Position numbers and translations under genes: made by a program | Part shown: positions 4,538-37,254 of the stretch, one piece after another | How positions within the stretch are numbered: position 1 is the stretch's first letter | Layout of the letters: the number at the start of each line of letters is the position of its first letter | NCBI RefSeq assembly: GCF_009696605.1 | Contig: NZ_VULR01000001.1 | Location: forward strand, 248,001 to 312,000 | Length of the DNA: 64,000 nt | Source of the DNA: Anaerosalibacter bizertensis | Lineage (GTDB): Bacteria; Bacillota; Clostridia; Tissierellales; Sporanaerobacteraceae | Reading direction: 5' to 3' | The notes under the pieces: generated by a model | Told to the model about the DNA's origin: nothing | Databases searched by the model: none | The model's input: the letters and a program-made list of their open reading frames with translations, nothing else

Positions 4538-4822
4538 TTATTTTAACGTGGTTGATTGTTCAGTTTTTTCACCGTGTCCTCTAAATATTCTAGTTGGAAC
4601 AAACTCTCCTAGTTTGTGGCCAACCATATCTTCAGTTATATATATAGGTACATGTTTTCTACCATCATGAACCGCTATAGTATGACCTATCATTTGAGGA
4701 AAAATTGTTGAACGACGTGACCAAGTTTTTACTACTTTTTTTTCATTTTTATCATTTAACTCATCGATTTTCTTTAATAAATGATCATCACAAAATGGTC
4801 CTTTCTTTAAGGATCTACCCAT
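4538..4822 (-). CDS. rpsS: 30S ribosomal protein S19
   Basis: S19 sits in the small-subunit head next to S13 and makes bridge B1a. The 94-residue product begins [19 protein letters not shown] and contains the signature [29 protein letters not shown] (given in part). It also has [16 protein letters not shown] clear AGGAGGAAG ribosome binding site is present. Confidence 0.97.
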
Positions 4823-6654: not shown

Positions 6655-7287
6655 CTATTTGGATACTTTAACACTCTCTTTTATTGTAAGTAGTCCACCT
6701 TTAGGGCCTGGTACTGCTCCTTTTATCAATAATAAATTCTTTTCAACATCTACTTTAGCAATTTCTAAGTTTTGAACTGTTACCTTTTCATTTCCCATAT
6801 GACCAGCTAATTTTTTACCTTTAAACACTCTTCCTGGATAAGCTGCTGCTGCCATAGCTCCAGGTGCTCTATGATATTTTGATCCATGAGTTTCTGGTCC
6901 TCTTCCATGTCCATGTCTTTTTATAGGTCCTTGAGTTCCTTTGCCTTTTGAAATTCCACTAACATCAACTTTATCGCCTAATTCGAATATATCTGCTTTA
7001 ATTTCTTGACCTATCTCATATTCATCTAAACTTTCAACTTTGAATTCTTTTAAATACTTTTTATATTCAACTTGTGCTTTATCAAAGTGACCTTTTAAAG
7101 GCTTATTTACTCTGTTTTCTTTAACGTCTACATATCCTACTTGAATAGAATTATACCCATCTTTTTCTAAACTCTTTTTTTGAACAACCTTTACTGGTCC
7201 TGCCTCAACTACTGTAACTGGGGTAACCACACCATTTTCATCGAATATTTGGGTCATTCCTATTTTTCTTCCTAAAATTTTTTTCAT
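6655..7287 (-). CDS. rplC: 50S ribosomal protein L3
   Basis: L3 is an early assembly protein whose extension reaches the peptidyl transferase centre. The 210-residue product begins [19 protein letters not shown] and carries the signature [20 protein letters not shown], then [14 protein letters not shown]. It follows rpsJ after 56 bases, with AGGAGGTGCAAAAGG upstream. Confidence 0.97.
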
Positions 7288-7343
7288 CCTTTTGCACCTC
7301 CTAAATCTTACAGCGGATTACATTTTGTAATCATTCTAAGAAA

Positions 7344-7667
7344 TTATAACTTTATTTCAATATCTACTCCTGCTGGTAAATTAAGCTTCATTAAAGAATC
7401 AACAGTCTTTTGATTTGGATTTAATATATCAATTAGACGTTTGTGAGTTCTTTGCTCAAATTGTTCTCTTGAATCTTTATATTTATGAACTGCTCTAAGT
7501 ATTGTAACAACTTCTTTTTCAGTTGGCAATGGTACTGGACCTGAAACTGTAGCTCCTGTCCTCTTAGCAGTTTCTACAATCTTTTGAGCTGAAACATCTA
7601 AAAGCTCATGATCGTAAGCTTTCAATCTGATTCTTATTTTTTGTTTTCCATTTCCTTTGTTTGACAT
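7344..7667 (-). CDS. rpsJ: 30S ribosomal protein S10 (NusE)
   Basis: S10 belongs to the small-subunit head and, as NusE, couples NusG-bound RNA polymerase to the ribosome. The 107-residue product contains [20 protein letters not shown] and the [20 protein letters not shown] block. It is the first gene of the S10 cluster and is preceded by a long structured leader (7668-7870) with its own promoter. AAGGAGGGAATTAC precedes the ATG. Confidence 0.97.
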
Positions 7668-25280: not shown

Positions 25281-25928
25281 TTAATCCTCTCTCAATTCTA
25301 AATACCTTTCTAATTTCCTCTTCACTCTTTGCAATGCATTATCAATACTTTTAACATGTCTATTTAATTCTTCTCCAATTTCTTGATAAGATTTTCCTTC
25401 TAGATATGCCATAAGCACTTCCCATTCAAGATCGCTTAATATTTCACCAATTTTACTTTCCATATTATTTAATTCTTCTCGACTTATAATAAGTTCTTCT
25501 GGATCTGTAATCTTAACTCCTGATAATACGTCTAAAAGAGTCCTATCTGATTCTTCATCATAAATAGGTTTATTTAAAGATACATAAGAGTTTAAAGGAA
25601 TATGTTTCTGTCTTGTAGCTGTTTTTATAGCAGTTATTATTTGTCTAGTTATACAAAGCTCTGCAAAAGCTTTAAAAGATGTAAGCTTGTCCTTGTTATA
25701 GTCTCGAATAGCCTTATACAGCCCTATCATTCCTTCTTGAATAATATCCTCCCTATCCGCTCCTATTAAAAAATAAGATCTAGCTTTTGCCCTTACAAAG
25801 TTTTTATACTTAGTTATAAGATACTCTAATGCTTGAAAATCACCTTTCTTAGCTTCCTCAACAATATCCTCATCTTCTAAACTATCACAATCTATAATGT
25901 CTAATTTATTGTACAGACCTATGCCCAC
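25281..25928 (-). CDS. sigH: RNA polymerase sigma factor SigH
   Basis: SigH (Spo0H) directs RNA polymerase to early sporulation and competence genes. The product of 215 residues contains LEYLITKYKNFVRAKARSYF, the region 2 block IGADREDIIQEGMIGLYKAI, TSFKAFAELCITRQIITAIK, and a region 4 helix-turn-helix near YQEIGEELNRHVKSIDNALQ. These are almost identical to the Bacillus protein. The GTG at 25926-25928 follows GGAGGGGATACTTG and is preferred to the ATG at 25964. Order rae1-sigH-rpmG is as in Bacillus. Confidence 0.96.
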   Translation of the reverse strand: MGIGLYNKLDIIDCDSLEDEDIVEEAKKGDFQALEYLITKYKNFVRAKARSYFLIGADREDIIQEGMIGLYKAIRDYNKDKLTSFKAFAELCITRQIITAIKTATRQKHIPLNSYVSLNKPIYDEESDRTLLDVLSGVKITDPEELIISREELNNMESKIGEILSDLEWEVLMAYLEGKSYQEIGEELNRHVKSIDNALQRVKRKLERYLELRED

Positions 25929-25986
25929 CAAGTATCCCCTCCAGAAAGTGTTGAAACATTTCATTTTACTTACTTCAACTAATTAA

Positions 25987-30692: not shown

Positions 30693-30930
30693 AAAAAAAA
30701 CCGCCTCAAAAACAGAGGCGATTGTTATCGCGGTTCCACTCTGATTGAAAAGAAATAAACTTTCCTTCCAACTCTAAAACGATAACGGTGTAAACCGGTT
30801 AACCCTACTTGTTTTTCAGGCAACAGTTCAAAGGTGCACTTCGATCTAATAGGAACCTAGGATTTCTCTCAGCTAGGTAAAAATCCTTCTCTGTAAGTAT
30901 ATTAGATCTACTTTCCCTTTTCACAACATT
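30693..30930 (-). promoter_or_regulatory. T-box leader, Cys specifier, controlling cysE-cysS
   Basis: The minus strand holds the T-box core AGAGTGGAACCGCGATAAC (30724-30742), followed by a terminator of CCGCCTC/GAGGCG arms and eight Ts (30693-30720). Stem I carries the AGTA motif and, on its 3' side, GAAG-TGC-ACC. TGC (30836-30838) is a cysteine codon and fits the downstream cysE and cysS. Confidence 0.93.
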
Positions 30931-32542: not shown

Positions 32543-33412
32543 CTATCCAAATAACTTACTAAAAAATTCTCCTATATAGTCAACTATTCTTTGAAGGAAT
32601 GACTTTACCTCCTCATTTTGATTTACTATCTTATCTATTTTACCTGATATATCTTTTAATTGGGTTTTTATATCGTCAAGATTTAGATCTAGTTTGGAAA
32701 TTTTTCTCATCAAATCAACAATTTCATTTATTTGTTCTTCTGTAAGTTGTATTTGTAATTCATCTGCTGCTGATTCTACAGCTTCTTTTATATCTTTTTT
32801 ACTCTTCTTATTATTTGCAACTACATCAACTTTTACATTTTCAATAAGCTCACTAGCTTCGTCTTTACCTATTTCATTGCCAAGCATTGCAGTTTTTACT
32901 ATCTCTTCACTTGCTACTTCTTTTTCTTTTTTAGATATATCTTCACCAGTAATATCTTCAAAAGCTTTTATAATACCTGTTAAAGCTGCAGTACCTGATA
33001 CATTTATAGGACTAGCTACCACTACCTTTGCATCCTTTATTCCTGCCGTAATCAACGCATTTTCATACATGTCCTTAGTTACCCAAGATATATTGTGAGT
33101 ATCTACAGAAATACCTGACCCTTCATCTAATTTTTCTACATAAGCACAAGACAATGATCTAGTTCCCAATAATTTATCGTCTATATACTTACCTAAATAT
33201 TCTCTTTCCTCTGCATTAGTAACTTCTACAATGTCCACGTCATTGCTTACGCCAAAATAATTTAACATTGAACTTCTTTGCTCATTGGTTAAATTTTTTC
33301 CCAAACTCACAACCACATTTCTTCCCATTTCTGCATCTGCTATTGCTAAGCTTGACATGTTTGATACAAGTAATAACATTATTAAAATAATAGAAATTGT
33401 TTTCTTAAGCAT
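32543..33412 (-). CDS. Secreted DUF1002 (YpuA-like) protein
   Basis: The 289-residue protein has a typical signal peptide (residues 1-25: KK then a hydrophobic core ending in SLAIADA). After it comes a DUF1002-type domain with GRNVVVSLGKNLTNEQR, RSLSCAYVEKLDEGSGI and VVVASPINVSGTAALTGIIK. The last 80 residues are predicted coiled coil (LRKISKLDLNLDDIKTQLK region in part). The family, which includes Bacillus YpuA, has no settled function. The protein is probably exported or surface-associated. It lies next to the agr locus but has no AgrA-type box of its own. Confidence 0.8.
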   Translation of the reverse strand: MLKKTISIILIMLLLVSNMSSLAIADAEMGRNVVVSLGKNLTNEQRSSMLNYFGVSNDVDIVEVTNAEEREYLGKYIDDKLLGTRSLSCAYVEKLDEGSGISVDTHNISWVTKDMYENALITAGIKDAKVVVASPINVSGTAALTGIIKAFEDITGEDISKKEKEVASEEIVKTAMLGNEIGKDEASELIENVKVDVVANNKKSKKDIKEAVESAADELQIQLTEEQINEIVDLMRKISKLDLNLDDIKTQLKDISGKIDKIVNQNEEVKSFLQRIVDYIGEFFSKLFG

Positions 33413-33502: not shown

Positions 33503-33528
33503 ATTGCTCTAGTTATAACTAGAGCAAT
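33503..33528 (-). terminator. Palindromic terminator overlapping the 60-residue gene
   Basis: ATTGCTCTAGTT and its reverse complement form a 26-base perfect palindrome followed on the minus strand by seven Ts. The stop codon of the upstream 60-residue gene (33519-33521) lies inside the stem. Confidence 0.85.
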
Positions 33529-33701
33529 AACCTTTCCATGCTTTTTTCGTTTTTTTCTAACTTTTCTAAAAATTCTTTTTTCTCTTTTAGATGTTCTGAA
33601 TATTCCTTATTAGTTATCTTCCCTTCCTCTTTTAAAAAATCTAATAATTTTATTGTTTCTATACAGAAAACTTTCAATTCATTTTGTATGAAATTTTCCA
33701 A
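33519..33701 (-). CDS. Small charged protein of unknown function (60 aa)
   Basis: I do not recognise this gene. The product begins MENFIQNELKVFCIETIKLL and has no signal peptide or membrane helix. It is rich in Lys, Glu and Leu, and its C-terminal half is likely a single helix or coiled coil. The start is TTG at 33699-33701 after GGGGGGAGAAAA. Evidence that it is real: a good ribosome binding site, a terminator at its end, and an upstream promoter region with three 21-bp-spaced AgrA-type boxes (33779-33832). It is therefore a candidate direct target of the quorum-sensing regulator. Confidence 0.7.
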   Translation of the reverse strand: MENFIQNELKVFCIETIKLLDFLKEEGKITNKEYSEHLKEKKEFLEKLEKNEKSMERLLL

Positions 33702-33755
33702 TTTTCTCCCCCCAATATCTTTACTTTCTCCTCATACCCTTTTCTTTCTATATAT

Positions 33756-33832
33756 ATTATCTATATCCTTCCGTTTTTTCTAACTGGTCCTTTTTTATGT
33801 CTAAGTGGTCCCTTTTGGCGTCTAACTGTCCA
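33756..33832 (-). promoter_or_regulatory. LytTR/AgrA-type box array A and promoter
   Basis: Three direct repeats close to GGACAGTTAGA (minus strand) start at 33779, 33800 and 33821, exactly 21 bp apart. The copy nearest the gene is followed after 8 bases by GAAGGAT (33765-33771). Eighteen bases after AGTTAG comes a -10-like GATAAT (33756-33761). The layout matches array B. It would drive the 60-residue gene starting at 33701. Confidence 0.75.
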
Positions 33833-33837
33833 TAAAA

Positions 33838-33868
33838 AAGGATATACTTTTAGATTAAGTATATCCTT
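33838..33868 (-). terminator. Terminator of the agr operon
   Basis: AAGGATATACTT (33838-33849) pairs with AAGTATATCCTT (33857-33868) around a 7-base loop. On the minus strand it ends in CCTTTTTTA. It lies ten bases after the agrA-like stop and just before array A. Confidence 0.88.
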
Positions 33869-33877
33869 CAAAAAATA

Positions 33878-34609
33878 TTATAACGTCAAATTTTCAATTT
33901 TTTCCCTAAATTCTTTAAATCCACTTCTACTCATTAAAGCTACTTTATCACTATTTAGAAACTCAATTTGATATACTCTTTCCCCAATTTCTGTTATTTT
34001 TTTTATTTTCTCCTCATTTACAATATAGGATTTGTGCACCCTTAAAAATTTATTTCCGAGTTTTTTCCCTAGTTCTTGTAAACTATCTTGTACACTATAA
34101 GTATTTTTGCCATCATGTATAACTGTATCTCTATCCAATCTTTCAGCATAAAGTATATCCTTTACAGATATAAAGAACATTTCTCCTCCACTTTTAACTA
34201 CAATCCTATTTATCCCTCTATTTTCATTAGAAGAATTTTTAGATACATAATTTGTTAAGGTAACTATTGTTTCAATAAGTCTTTTCACATTTATAGGTTT
34301 TAAAATATAGTCATAAGGATGAACGTCAAAAGCAGAAACTGCATATTTAGAATGGCCAGTAATAAACACTATTTTAGTTTCTGGACTTATCTTGTGTATA
34401 ATCCTTGCTATTTCAAGACCATTAAAATCTTCACCTTCTAGCTCCACATCTAGCATAGCTATTTCCGGTAGATATTCTCTTGCTAAACTTATTGCCTCTT
34501 TTCCACTTGATGTATCAAAAATTTGCGGCGAAGAAGAATTTTCTAGTACTATTTTTTTTATAAATCTTCTGGTATAGTCTTCATCTTCTAAAATGAGGAT
34601 TTTCACCAA
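33878..34609 (-). CDS. agrA: AgrA-like LytTR response regulator
   Basis: The 243-residue protein has a receiver domain (ILILEDED, phosphoacceptor Asp at about 54 in MLDVELEG, VFITGHSKYAV, YILKPI). A C-terminal LytTR DNA-binding domain carries the typical NKFLRVHKSYIVNEEKI. The start is TTG at 34607-34609, about 10 bases after AGGAG within the agrD end. It is the last gene of the kinase-agrB-agrD-agrA cluster and the presumed reader of the GGACAGTTAGA boxes in arrays A-C. LytTR proteins of the Agr/VirR type bind such 9-bp half sites with 12-bp spacers. Confidence 0.92.
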   Translation of the reverse strand: MVKILILEDEDYTRRFIKKIVLENSSSPQIFDTSSGKEAISLAREYLPEIAMLDVELEGEDFNGLEIARIIHKISPETKIVFITGHSKYAVSAFDVHPYDYILKPINVKRLIETIVTLTNYVSKNSSNENRGINRIVVKSGGEMFFISVKDILYAERLDRDTVIHDGKNTYSVQDSLQELGKKLGNKFLRVHKSYIVNEEKIKKITEIGERVYQIEFLNSDKVALMSRSGFKEFREKIENLTL

Positions 34610-34622
34610 CTATTATCAGCTC

Positions 34623-34742
34623 CTACTTTTTTAAAGATTCTGGTATTTCCGGTTCATAGTATATTAATACACTACATGTACTAGCTCCTGTACTAGCAAC
34701 TAGTCCTAAAAATGATGCAATTGCTGTAAGAAGGCCTTTCAT
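34623..34742 (-). CDS. agrD: AgrD-like autoinducer peptide precursor (39 aa)
   Basis: This short gene begins directly after the agrB stop with AGGAGGTGAAGTAG upstream. The product begins MKGLLTAIASFLGLVASTGA, an amphipathic leader, and continues STCSVLIYYEPEIPESLKK. The single cysteine and the acidic, proline-containing tail YEPEIPESL are hallmarks of clostridial AgrD. By analogy the mature signal is a thiolactone ring formed by the Cys and a residue four positions (Ile) or five positions (Tyr) after it, with a short ST or longer N-terminal tail. The exact ring cannot be decided from sequence. Confidence 0.93.
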   Translation of the reverse strand: MKGLLTAIASFLGLVASTGASTCSVLIYYEPEIPESLKK

Positions 34743-35375
34743 CTACTTCACCTCCTCATATTTGACTTTAGTTTTGTCTAAAATATTGTCTATACTGGTT
34801 ATAAACCAGTATCCTAAAGGTGTTATAAATATAAAGCTTGTAAGTGCACCTAGTATAATAGGTAAAATATACTTAAAACTATTTAAACTAATTAAAATTT
34901 GAACTATTATAATCCAAAGGATTAAAACTATTGTAGTTTTAATCTTTTGTTTTTTTCTGTCTTCTTTATCCTTTATTGGCTTTATTTCCGTATCTCCAGG
35001 GACCCATTTTATAATAGTTAAAATCCCTAAAAATAAAGTTACAAAGAACAATAAACTGTAATTAGACATATTGCCCTTCATATTAGATATGCTTCCTAGA
35101 ATCAAAAACTTAATAACCCCAAAAGTTAAACATCTTAAATAAGTACTAAAATGCACCCCGCCTCCAAAACAACGAAAAACTGCAAAGGTAATCAAAGTTA
35201 AGATAGTTGGTTTAAATATTCCAAAACTAGCTGATAATCCAGCTATAAGTCCAAATTTAATAGTTCCATTTAATAATAACTCTAATCCATAAGCCCATAT
35301 TTCTACATCTTCACTACTCCCATCTAAACTTTTTGATAACAAAATAGATAACCTTTTTGAAAGTTTTTTAATCAT
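34743..35375 (-). CDS. agrB: AgrB-like peptide-processing membrane protease
   Basis: AgrB cuts AgrD at the C-terminal tail and forms the thiolactone. The 210-residue protein has several membrane helices and the catalytic pair His75 and Cys82 in GGGVHFSTYLRCLTFG, with the family spacing of seven residues. It overlaps the kinase gene by 8 bases and is followed without a gap by agrD, so the three are translationally coupled. Confidence 0.94.
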   Translation of the reverse strand: MIKKLSKRLSILLSKSLDGSSEDVEIWAYGLELLLNGTIKFGLIAGLSASFGIFKPTILTLITFAVFRCFGGGVHFSTYLRCLTFGVIKFLILGSISNMKGNMSNYSLLFFVTLFLGILTIIKWVPGDTEIKPIKDKEDRKKQKIKTTIVLILWIIIVQILISLNSFKYILPIILGALTSFIFITPLGYWFITSIDNILDKTKVKYEEVK

Positions 35376-36708
35376 TCCTATTACCTTCCCCTTTTGGAAG
35401 TATTATTTTAAACAAAGTTTTATCTGTAGAATAAACTTCTATACTACCCTTGTACTTATCTAAAAGATTTTTTATTAAAAATAATCCATATCCTCTTCCT
35501 ACAGATTCTTTTGTAGTATAACCAGGTTCAAATAGCTTGTCCATTTGATCTTTAGATATTTTAGCTCCATTATTTGATACTTCCATTATGTAAGTTCCTT
35601 CAGAACAATCTATATCCAATTTTACCAATCTATGGTGTTTCTCTTTCCTTACAGCTTCAAAAGCATTATCTAAAAGGTTCCCTAATATACTACATAAATC
35701 CCAAGAATCAATTTTCAATTCACCTAAACTACAATTAATAGAAAACTTAAAATCTATATTGCTTATCTCTGCCACTTTCCTCTTCCCATTTATTAGAGCA
35801 GTTAAAGCCATATTCTCTACATATATTATGTCATCAGTATAACTATATCCCTCACTAAGGCCATCAATATATTCCTTTGCAGATGCTATTTCATCTAAGT
35901 AGACCATAGCCTGAATAGTTTGAATATGACGTTTGTGCTCATGGCTTTGAACCCTTAAAGCTTTAAATAAATCTTCAATTTGTTCTAAATGGGTTTTTAA
36001 AAGACTCATTTCAACTTTGTCTTTTATATCATCTCCAAGTCCTTTTATAGAAAATAACACCAAAATAGTAAATACACTAATGATTATATTTATTATTGTA
36101 TATTCAATTCCGCCTAAAACATATGTTTGTTGTGAAAGATAAAATGTCTGATTCATAACTGTTATAAATATGCCTTGAATTAAAACCGTAAATAAAACCA
36201 ATAGAGATTTATCTTTAAACAAATATTTTGCATCATTTTCATATATCTTTAAATCAAATAGAAAAACCTTTCTTTTCTTTATAAATATATATAGTAAAAA
36301 CATTAATAATCCACTAGGAATAAATAAAACAATATTAAGCCAAGGACTTGTTATTAATCCTTCTGGAGCACTTTGAAACAAACTTAATAAAACAGGAGTT
36401 AGTATGCTTTGCAATAAGCCATCTATTAACAAACTAGTTACAATACATATAAACGAGTAAGCTATATTCATTTTTAATATTATCCTTATAAGAATCAAAG
36501 AAAAAAATATAAAAATTACTGTATGAAACCCATATACACTAGCAAATTTTCTCACAATATATACAATTATAGAAATCAATAAAGATACTAATAAAGTTTT
36601 TTTGAAATTTACATCTATATTAAATAATTTAAATCCTAAAATTATTAAAAGAAACATTTCAGGTATAGACTGAAATAAAACAACATACCAAGGTATTGAG
36701 TACAACAT
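35368..36708 (-). CDS. agrC: AgrC-like sensor histidine kinase
   Basis: The product (446 residues from the ATG at 36706-36708) has about six to seven N-terminal membrane helices up to residue 225, the usual AIP-receptor layout. A cytoplasmic kinase of the SPOB/GHKL type follows. The dimerisation helix holds LRVQSHEHKRHIQTIQ, where the first His is the likely phosphorylated residue. The N box is ILGNLLDNAFEA and the G box SVGRGYGLFLIKNLL. AGGTGA lies 6 bases before the chosen ATG; a second ATG six bases upstream abuts it. The kinase is first in the operon, unlike the staphylococcal BDCA order. Confidence 0.92.
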   Translation of the reverse strand: MLYSIPWYVVLFQSIPEMFLLIILGFKLFNIDVNFKKTLLVSLLISIIVYIVRKFASVYGFHTVIFIFFSLILIRIILKMNIAYSFICIVTSLLIDGLLQSILTPVLLSLFQSAPEGLITSPWLNIVLFIPSGLLMFLLYIFIKKRKVFLFDLKIYENDAKYLFKDKSLLVLFTVLIQGIFITVMNQTFYLSQQTYVLGGIEYTIINIIISVFTILVLFSIKGLGDDIKDKVEMSLLKTHLEQIEDLFKALRVQSHEHKRHIQTIQAMVYLDEIASAKEYIDGLSEGYSYTDDIIYVENMALTALINGKRKVAEISNIDFKFSINCSLGELKIDSWDLCSILGNLLDNAFEAVRKEKHHRLVKLDIDCSEGTYIMEVSNNGAKISKDQMDKLFEPGYTTKESVGRGYGLFLIKNLLDKYKGSIEVYSTDKTLFKIILPKGEGNRND

Positions 36709-36903
36709 AGACATTCACCTATTTTTTATATTTGCTACACTATTACACTTTCTATACTTTAAGTGAATATCCTTTATTTTTTCCTGATTTTCGTATTACA
36801 ATTTATATCAATATTCGTCTTTTGCTGAAATATATTATATAAACTATAATAATTTTTTATCACTATACCATATTTAAACTGTATTTAATATATTTCTTCA
36901 ATA

Positions 36904-37001
36904 TAAATATAAATCCTTCTAAAAAAACTAACTGTCCAGTTTTAGTGTCTAACTGACCCTTTTTCATGTCTAAACAGTCCATTTTCATGTTTAAACTGCC
37001 A
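36904..37001 (-). promoter_or_regulatory. LytTR/AgrA-type box array B and agr promoter
   Basis: Four direct repeats related to GGACAGTTAGA on the minus strand lie in exact 21-bp register (36927, 36948, 36969, 36990). The nearest copy is followed after 8 bases by GAAGGAT and, 18 bases after AGTTAG, by TATTTA (36904-36909), the same arrangement as array A. It would drive the kinase-agrB-agrD-agrA operon with a leader of about 190 bases. This is the expected positive feedback site. The leader (36709-36900) is AT-rich, with an extra TGGTATAGT -10-like site near 36860 and no gene. Confidence 0.75.
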
Positions 37002-37085
37002 TTAGATTTTATACTAAGTAAATATTATATTAATAATATTTATATCTAAAGAATTAAGCCTATCTTTATATTTAAATATAATAGA

Positions 37086-37177
37086 AATAGAGTAGTAGGG
37101 AGTTAACTCCCTACTACTCTATTAAAATAACAACTGGTATTGTTAGTTTTAAATATATAACTAATATACAATATTTA
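37086..37177 (-). ncRNA. Candidate small RNA ending in a 38-bp palindrome
   Basis: Between array C and array B there is no convincing gene. There is a 6-bp hairpin (37128-37145, TAACAA/TTGTTA) followed by a perfect 38-base palindrome (37086-37123, centre GTTAAC) and a U-rich stretch, which looks like an intrinsic terminator. Since three AgrA-type boxes precede it (37201-37254), the interval could be a regulated small RNA, comparable in position to an RNAIII-type output. Alternatively the palindrome is only the proS terminator. The 5' end is unknown. Confidence 0.4.
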
Positions 37178-37200
37178 AATAACATTTTCTATATAAAACG

Positions 37201-37254
37201 TCTAACTGTCCACTTTCATGTATCAACTATCCATTTTGAAAGTCTAATTTACCA
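37201..37254 (-). promoter_or_regulatory. LytTR/AgrA-type box array C
   Basis: Three direct repeats start at 37201, 37222 and 37243, again exactly 21 bp apart. On the minus strand they read GGACAGTTAGA, GGATAGTTGAT and GGTAAATTAGA. The array ends at the proS stop codon. Only the copy nearest the following sequence is a perfect match, as in array A. The GAAGGAT element seen in A and B is missing here, and the -10 is unclear (GTTATT at 18 bases, TATAGA closer). Confidence 0.65.

Follow-up and report, generated by a model that had tools for sequence, protein, structure and literature searches.

Ten short boxes flank the agr quorum-sensing genes of Anaerosalibacter bizertensis, and the question raised by this locus is which regulator reads them and which form of RNA polymerase transcribes from the promoters behind them. 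The boxes form three arrays (A, B and C) in a 64-kb stretch of contig NZ_VULR01000001.1, the whole of which is called the window below. All are oriented along the minus strand, on which the agr genes are also encoded, and within each array they are 21 base pairs (bp) apart. In the reading that we consider quite likely, the arrays would be operators for the AgrA protein of this same locus, and arrays A and B, together with one more array elsewhere in the genome (on contig C42) and an array in a related genus, would activate promoters of the polymerase containing the sigma factor SigH (sigma-H). The arrays are the following.

33779..33832, minus strand: array A, three predicted AgrA (LytTR) boxes in 21-bp phase, between agrA and an open reading frame (ORF) of 60 amino acids (aa)
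36927..37001, minus strand: array B, four predicted AgrA boxes in 21-bp phase, upstream of agrC
37201..37254, minus strand: array C, three boxes (two of them degenerate) in 21-bp phase, directly after the proS stop codon

The number, positions, orientation and phase of the boxes agree with those given in a preliminary description of this DNA, the coordinates of which were confirmed. The exact sequence GGACAGTTAGA is found in two boxes (33821 and 37201), the remaining ones having one to five mismatches; the weakest are boxes 36969 and 36990, both with their own 1-bp wobble. The repeat unit is approximately TGGACAGTTAGACATGAAAAA, and thus the spacer between boxes tends to carry an A-tract as well. 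The single-box motif is not enriched in the window (19 matches with at most two mismatches, 19.4 expected), as would be the case if the arrays were chance repeats in low-complexity AT-rich DNA. It is the phasing that is significant. When each array is scored with a weight matrix from whose training it was left out, three consecutive boxes sum at best to 46.6 in array A, 39.2 in B and 28.6 in C. Shuffling the window 100 times with its dinucleotides preserved gives maxima of 21.0, 23.0 and 24.4, respectively, array C being the weakest of the three arrays; no other spacing between 12 and 35 bp reaches the array sums anywhere in the window. This leave-one-out test, the conservation of the arrays and their out-of-sample recurrence (see below) refute the chance explanation, whose probability we consider negligible. 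The trained matrix was used instead of the Staphylococcus aureus consensus, which, searched as runs of ACAGTTARG with three to four mismatches, failed to tell the arrays from the background.

The geometry of the arrays is that of LytTR operators, with direct repeats of about 9 bp separated by a spacer of about 12 bp and located upstream of the -35 element, and the 21-bp phase is known, for instance, from RgaR of Clostridioides difficile (PMC10602386). Two-site LytTR operators are standard, and most arrays here deviate from the canonical pair of Agr half-sites, having three or four phased boxes. The suggestion in the preliminary description that more than two half-sites are unusual holds in this respect, but three-site LytTR operators do exist: RcoM1 and CoxC bind three direct repeats at two-turn intervals with their LytTR domains, being, unlike AgrA, CO-sensing one-component regulators of proteobacteria that act at sigma-70 promoters, CoxC as a repressor (PMC11347149). 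The box nearest the promoter was also described as the best match in arrays B and C; this is correct for C, while in B boxes 36927 and 36948 tie with one mismatch each, and in array A the nearest box is not the best one.

The genes next to the arrays point to the regulator. On the minus strand, the gene order is proS, array C, a hairpin, array B, agrC, agrB, agrD, agrA, array A, the 60-aa ORF, a gene for a DUF1002 secreted protein, and gltX, so that all four agr genes stand together.

35368..36714, minus strand: agrC, GHKL histidine kinase (HATPase_c_5)
34743..35375, minus strand: agrB (PF04647, E-value 3e-35)
34624..34742, minus strand: agrD, 39-aa cyclic-peptide precursor (TIGR04223, 47.8 bits, cut-off 19)
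33878..34609, minus strand: agrA, response regulator with receiver and LytTR domains and the motif FLRVHKS

The LytTR DNA-contact motif FhRhHRS (PMC4227749) is present in AgrA as FLRVHKS, and F-h-R-V-H-x-S is kept in five orthologs. This AgrA is 86% identical to that of Anaerosalibacter massiliensis ND1, the closest named relative, from the same genus, and is far from the staphylococcal type, scoring 50.7 bits with model NF046049 against an equivalog cut-off of 400. The earlier assignment of the boxes to AgrA is well supported, since the arrays flank an agrC-agrB-agrD-agrA locus whose AgrA has a LytTR domain and are conserved with this locus in relatives; very probably, the boxes are docking sites for the locus's own AgrA. 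The cell also has a gene for a second LytTR regulator (G000:C12:198894), 32% identical to AgrA, which might bind the arrays in its place. This is very unlikely, as the arrays travel with agrA, adjoining it at the same position in at least six genomes, and none is found in a genome of the same family that lacks agrA (G004).

In particular, array B (three to four boxes) and array A (two to three boxes) occupy the same places in two other genomes of the genus (G001, G002) and in one of a related genus (G003), and array A is kept in a second genome of the related genus (G005); array C was found only in the present genome (G000) and its nearest relative, G001. Searching the genome with a two-box pattern gave mostly noise. 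A genome-wide profile scan retrieved arrays A, B and C and one more, at G000:C42:138662, with a clear gap between the weakest accepted piece (E-value 4e-6) and the next match (0.07); its training set included these four arrays, the C42 array having first been found by pattern search. The related genus contributed two more arrays (G003:C5:264708 and G005:C158:418-480), which had no part in the training and were found independently; in G004, which lacks this AgrA, the profile scan gave no array above noise. Similarly phased arrays at random places far from agr, which would speak against an AgrA operator, were looked for genome-wide and none was found, the sole unlinked array preceding a plausible target.

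The second part of the question concerns the promoters. Candidate sites were scored against the sigma-H consensus RNAGGAWWW-N11-RNNGAAWW (14 positions), as quoted for C. difficile (PMC11139204). In four genomes of the family, spo0A and spoVG, used for calibration, each have a 14/14 site with the N11 spacer. The corresponding features of the window are the following.

33744..33771, minus strand: sigma-H-type promoter of array A, GAAGGATAT-N11-ATAGAAAG, 13/14, starting at +15 from the C of the last CAGTTA
36892..36919, minus strand: predicted sigma-H promoter of agrCBDA (array B), GAAGGATTT-N11-GAAGAAAT, 14/14
25281..25964, minus strand: sigH, whose product is the predicted sigma factor for the promoters of arrays A and B (TIGR02859, 380.7 bits, cut-off 294.8), 8 kb from the arrays

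In arrays A, B and C42, the distance from the last box to the sigma-H site that follows is exactly 15 bp, the sites scoring 13/14, 14/14 and 14/14, and the related-genus array (G003/G005) has a 14/14 site at the same offset. Among orthologs of array A, the scores at this offset are 14 (G002), 13 (G003) and 13 (G005) of 14. In shuffles with the offset fixed (5000 for each array), 14/14 was never reached, and 13/14, the score of array A, had a frequency of 0.003. The offset of +15 was noticed post hoc, so the real test is its recurrence in separate promoters and in other families. The preliminary description overlooked these promoters behind arrays A and B, as well as the different character of array C, and was incomplete in this respect. 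Other 14/14 sigma-H-type sites in the window are located at 30889, 46141 and 54290 (all on the minus strand).

Alternatively, AgrA could use the arrays as ordinary operators of sigma-A promoters, in the manner of P2/P3 of S. aureus, the AGGA..GAA pattern being an accident of AT-rich DNA. Array C with its TAGAAA-N17-TATATT promoter fits sigma-A, and the AgrA promoters of S. aureus have -35 and -10 elements with poor spacing (PMC4227749). Still, the sigma-H match is seen in four separate promoters at one and the same offset, which recurs in other families, and arrays A, B and C42 share no consistent TATAAT-type -10 element at a distance that could be used; we regard this alternative as unlikely. 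Sigma-A -10 elements placed by hand for arrays A and B were inconsistent between the two, a conflict that was resolved by assigning the promoters to sigma-H.

Recurrence was assessed beyond the family. A strict pattern of boxes plus sigma-H site, applied to 249 genomes of the order, matched only this family and two chance sequences (one match in the reversed control). The model of boxes plus promoter, applied to 391 genomes of the class, matched one distant genome, G328, twice; its AgrA is 53% identical. Moreover, further neighborhoods of AgrA orthologs in other families were chosen by protein similarity alone, and among their 182,394 positions the top three-box sites of a matrix built from the present genome only were arrays in G328, G303, G378 (two copies) and G421, ahead of the background. 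All these arrays have a sigma-H site of 13-14/14 at the same +15 offset, in register nearest the promoter, and the AgrAs of these genomes are 44-53% identical to the one studied here. In G378, G303 and G421 the array starts just downstream of agrA, which is also the position of array A; the arrays of G378 and G303 consist of four regular 21-bp units, with a box core that has diverged to GGGCTATTCAG. In a protein tree, with mixed branch support and some long rows, the array-bearing AgrAs fall in more than one branch.

Three side observations concern these genomes. G328 has a third, partial array just after agrA (L133:18602-18660), running into a different sequence (GGGGACGGTTCTTGTTG...) and perhaps disrupted by an insertion. 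In the second agr copy of G378 (L145), agrA (6880-7587) contains an in-frame stop, while a full array and a sigma-H promoter lie downstream. Read by eye, G278 (L146) has three 21-bp-phased GCTATT boxes upstream of agrC near 4730-4820, with the sigma-H site 11 bp further down than in the other arrays, about one helical turn.

Several observations weigh against AgrA operators coupled to sigma-H promoters. Boxes 36969, 36990 and 37222 are weak, and G005 has one recognizable box before agrC. The sigma-H score is only 11/14 for array A of G001 and 12/14 for array B of G002, while array C has no sigma-H site (7/14 at the standard offset); the consensus itself is AT-rich, and the window contains five 14/14 sites. 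No clear array was seen in G013, G029 and G012, whose AgrAs are 47-49% identical. The agrC promoters of G378, G303 and G133 have a sigma-H site and no boxes, so the two controls are separable:

L050:5594, L144:6549 and L145:5737, loci oriented with agr on the plus strand: agrC promoters in other families, 13-14/14 for sigma-H, no AgrA boxes

These promoters suggest that sigma-H control of agr may be widespread, while AgrA autoregulation is variable. The whole reading is drawn from the sequence.

If AgrA is the regulator and sigma-H the polymerase partner, the locus could work as follows. According to the established agr logic, AgrB would make the secreted autoinducing peptide from AgrD, the peptide would activate AgrC, and AgrC would phosphorylate AgrA. 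Phosphorylated AgrA (AgrA~P) would bind two to four direct repeats, and since these are 21 bp, or two helical turns, apart, all protomers would lie on one face of the DNA, able to touch each other and RNA polymerase; the cooperativity that we infer from this geometry would make the response steeper with each extra upstream site. The nearest site, 15 bp from the sigma-H element, would be well placed for contact with the polymerase, AgrA thus activating the sigma-H (Spo0H) holoenzyme. Spo0A~P is known to act in this manner at sigma-H promoters of Bacillus subtilis such as spoIIA, where a response regulator bound to repeated boxes activates the sigma-H polymerase; unlike AgrA, Spo0A is neither a LytTR protein nor a quorum regulator responding to an autoinducing peptide. 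If the AGGA element is the -35 element, the nearest AgrA site would cover about -53 to -45, close to the key G residues of RgaR operators, which are 21 bp apart at -51 and -72 (PMC10602386).

The result would be a coincidence gate for high density and transition phase, acting on the agr operon (positive feedback), the small protein and the operons of secreted peptides and exporters. Density by itself would not suffice, because the promoter would need sigma-H in vivo. As most arrays directly precede promoters of SigH, the sporulation-entry sigma factor, expression of the controlled genes is predicted to require crowding and exit from growth at the same time. If true, this would connect peptide quorum sensing in a concrete and testable way to the transition-phase sigma factor of clostridia, a group in which it is still open how Agr relates to sporulation and in which doubts have been raised about the autoregulation of Agr (PMC10602386).

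Compared with P2/P3 of S. aureus agr, where AgrA binds two 9-bp repeats with a 12-bp spacer, the common features are the locus-encoded AgrA, the 21-bp direct repeats upstream of a promoter, autoregulation and a suspected companion small RNA; the differences are three to four boxes, sigma-H-type promoters, the gene order C-B-D-A and several targets with separate arrays. RgaR is likewise a clostridial VirR/AgrA-like regulator with agr genes and a small RNA (agrB1D1, SpoZ) among its targets, but its operators are described as repeat pairs, with no mention of sigma-H, and Agr1 of C. difficile is reported not to be autoregulatory (PMC10602386). No paper joining an Agr/LytTR regulator to sigma-H promoters was found in the open literature; subscription journals were mostly outside this search, so novelty is not proven. 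On balance, we lean towards an ancient agr branch of clostridia whose AgrA would be a dedicated activator of the sigma-H polymerase, acting through operators of two to four sites at 21 bp locked to the sigma-H -35 element and also serving a sigma-A promoter of a small RNA. Quorum sensing and the sporulation-entry sigma factor would in this case meet at individual promoters.

This last promoter belongs to array C, where a sigma-A-like promoter would produce a short transcript ending at a terminator, which is probably a regulatory RNA.

37163..37191, minus strand: candidate sigma-A promoter of array C, TAGAAA-N17-TATATT
37080..37157, minus strand: predicted small RNA of about 75 nt with an inferred start site and a terminator hairpin of 16-17 bp (37123-37086)

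That array C drives a small regulatory RNA is, in our opinion, a reasonable if far from secure prediction; regulatory RNAs are under the control of the agr and VirSR systems in S. aureus, Clostridium perfringens and C. difficile alike (PMC10602386). Array C could instead be a decaying copy of an agr operator, with the hairpin serving only as the proS terminator and no functional small RNA, which would be compatible with AgrA and sigma-H acting at the other arrays. Decay would fit the restriction of the array to a pair of close genomes and the degeneration of all but one of its three boxes; in G002 and G003 a proS terminator occupies this position and no array accompanies it, and an Rfam search of the transcript gave no family above threshold. 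Decay is less expected from the nearest box, a perfect GGACAGTTAGA kept in both genomes, and from the downstream stretch, in which the 23 nt before the hairpin are identical to those of G001 and the pairing of the hairpin survives three double changes. We give decay somewhat less than an even chance. A peptide reading (LKLTIPVVILI) is not favored: the frame is open in both genomes, with no start codon after the predicted transcript start here.

For arrays outside array C, the predicted targets are as follows. Array B is predicted to control agrCBDA, and array A the gene of a small protein:

33519..33701, minus strand: gene of the 60-aa protein, predicted target of array A, no Pfam family, terminator at 33528-33503

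Orthologs of this protein occur in five other genomes, including G133. The C42 array precedes the gene of a 128-aa protein with a signal-peptide-like start (no match in Pfam, NCBIfam or a plasmid search), followed by two FtsX-type permeases, and the G003 array precedes small ORFs and a peptide-exporter-like ABC transporter. Arrays in other families also precede proteins with signal-peptide-like starts, one of them C39 peptidase-like by eye, and the G328 region also encodes C39-like and M23 peptidases. The geometry (boxes every 21 bp, the last one 15 bp before a sigma-H site) may serve as a search rule: since it found arrays in other families, several of them beside probable secreted-protein genes, agr regulons could become predictable across clostridia.

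Some further observations concern the targets and the autoinducer. A paralog of the 128-aa protein (52%; G000:C28:56-451, L116) has an identical signal-peptide start and a near-identical 5' leader, cut by the contig end, and a further array is predicted just beyond this assembly break. The DUF1002 gene (32543-33412, minus strand), between the 60-aa ORF and gltX, is present in all syntenic agr loci examined; the predicted array A transcript should stop at the terminator ahead of it. In AgrD, compared with orthologs from loci L043-L046, L048 and L049, Cys occurs only in the genus Anaerosalibacter, while seven orthologs share, without exception, a Ser next to it (S-x-x-x-x-[YH]EP), which suggests that the autoinducer is a five-residue Ser-lactone rather than the usual thiolactone.

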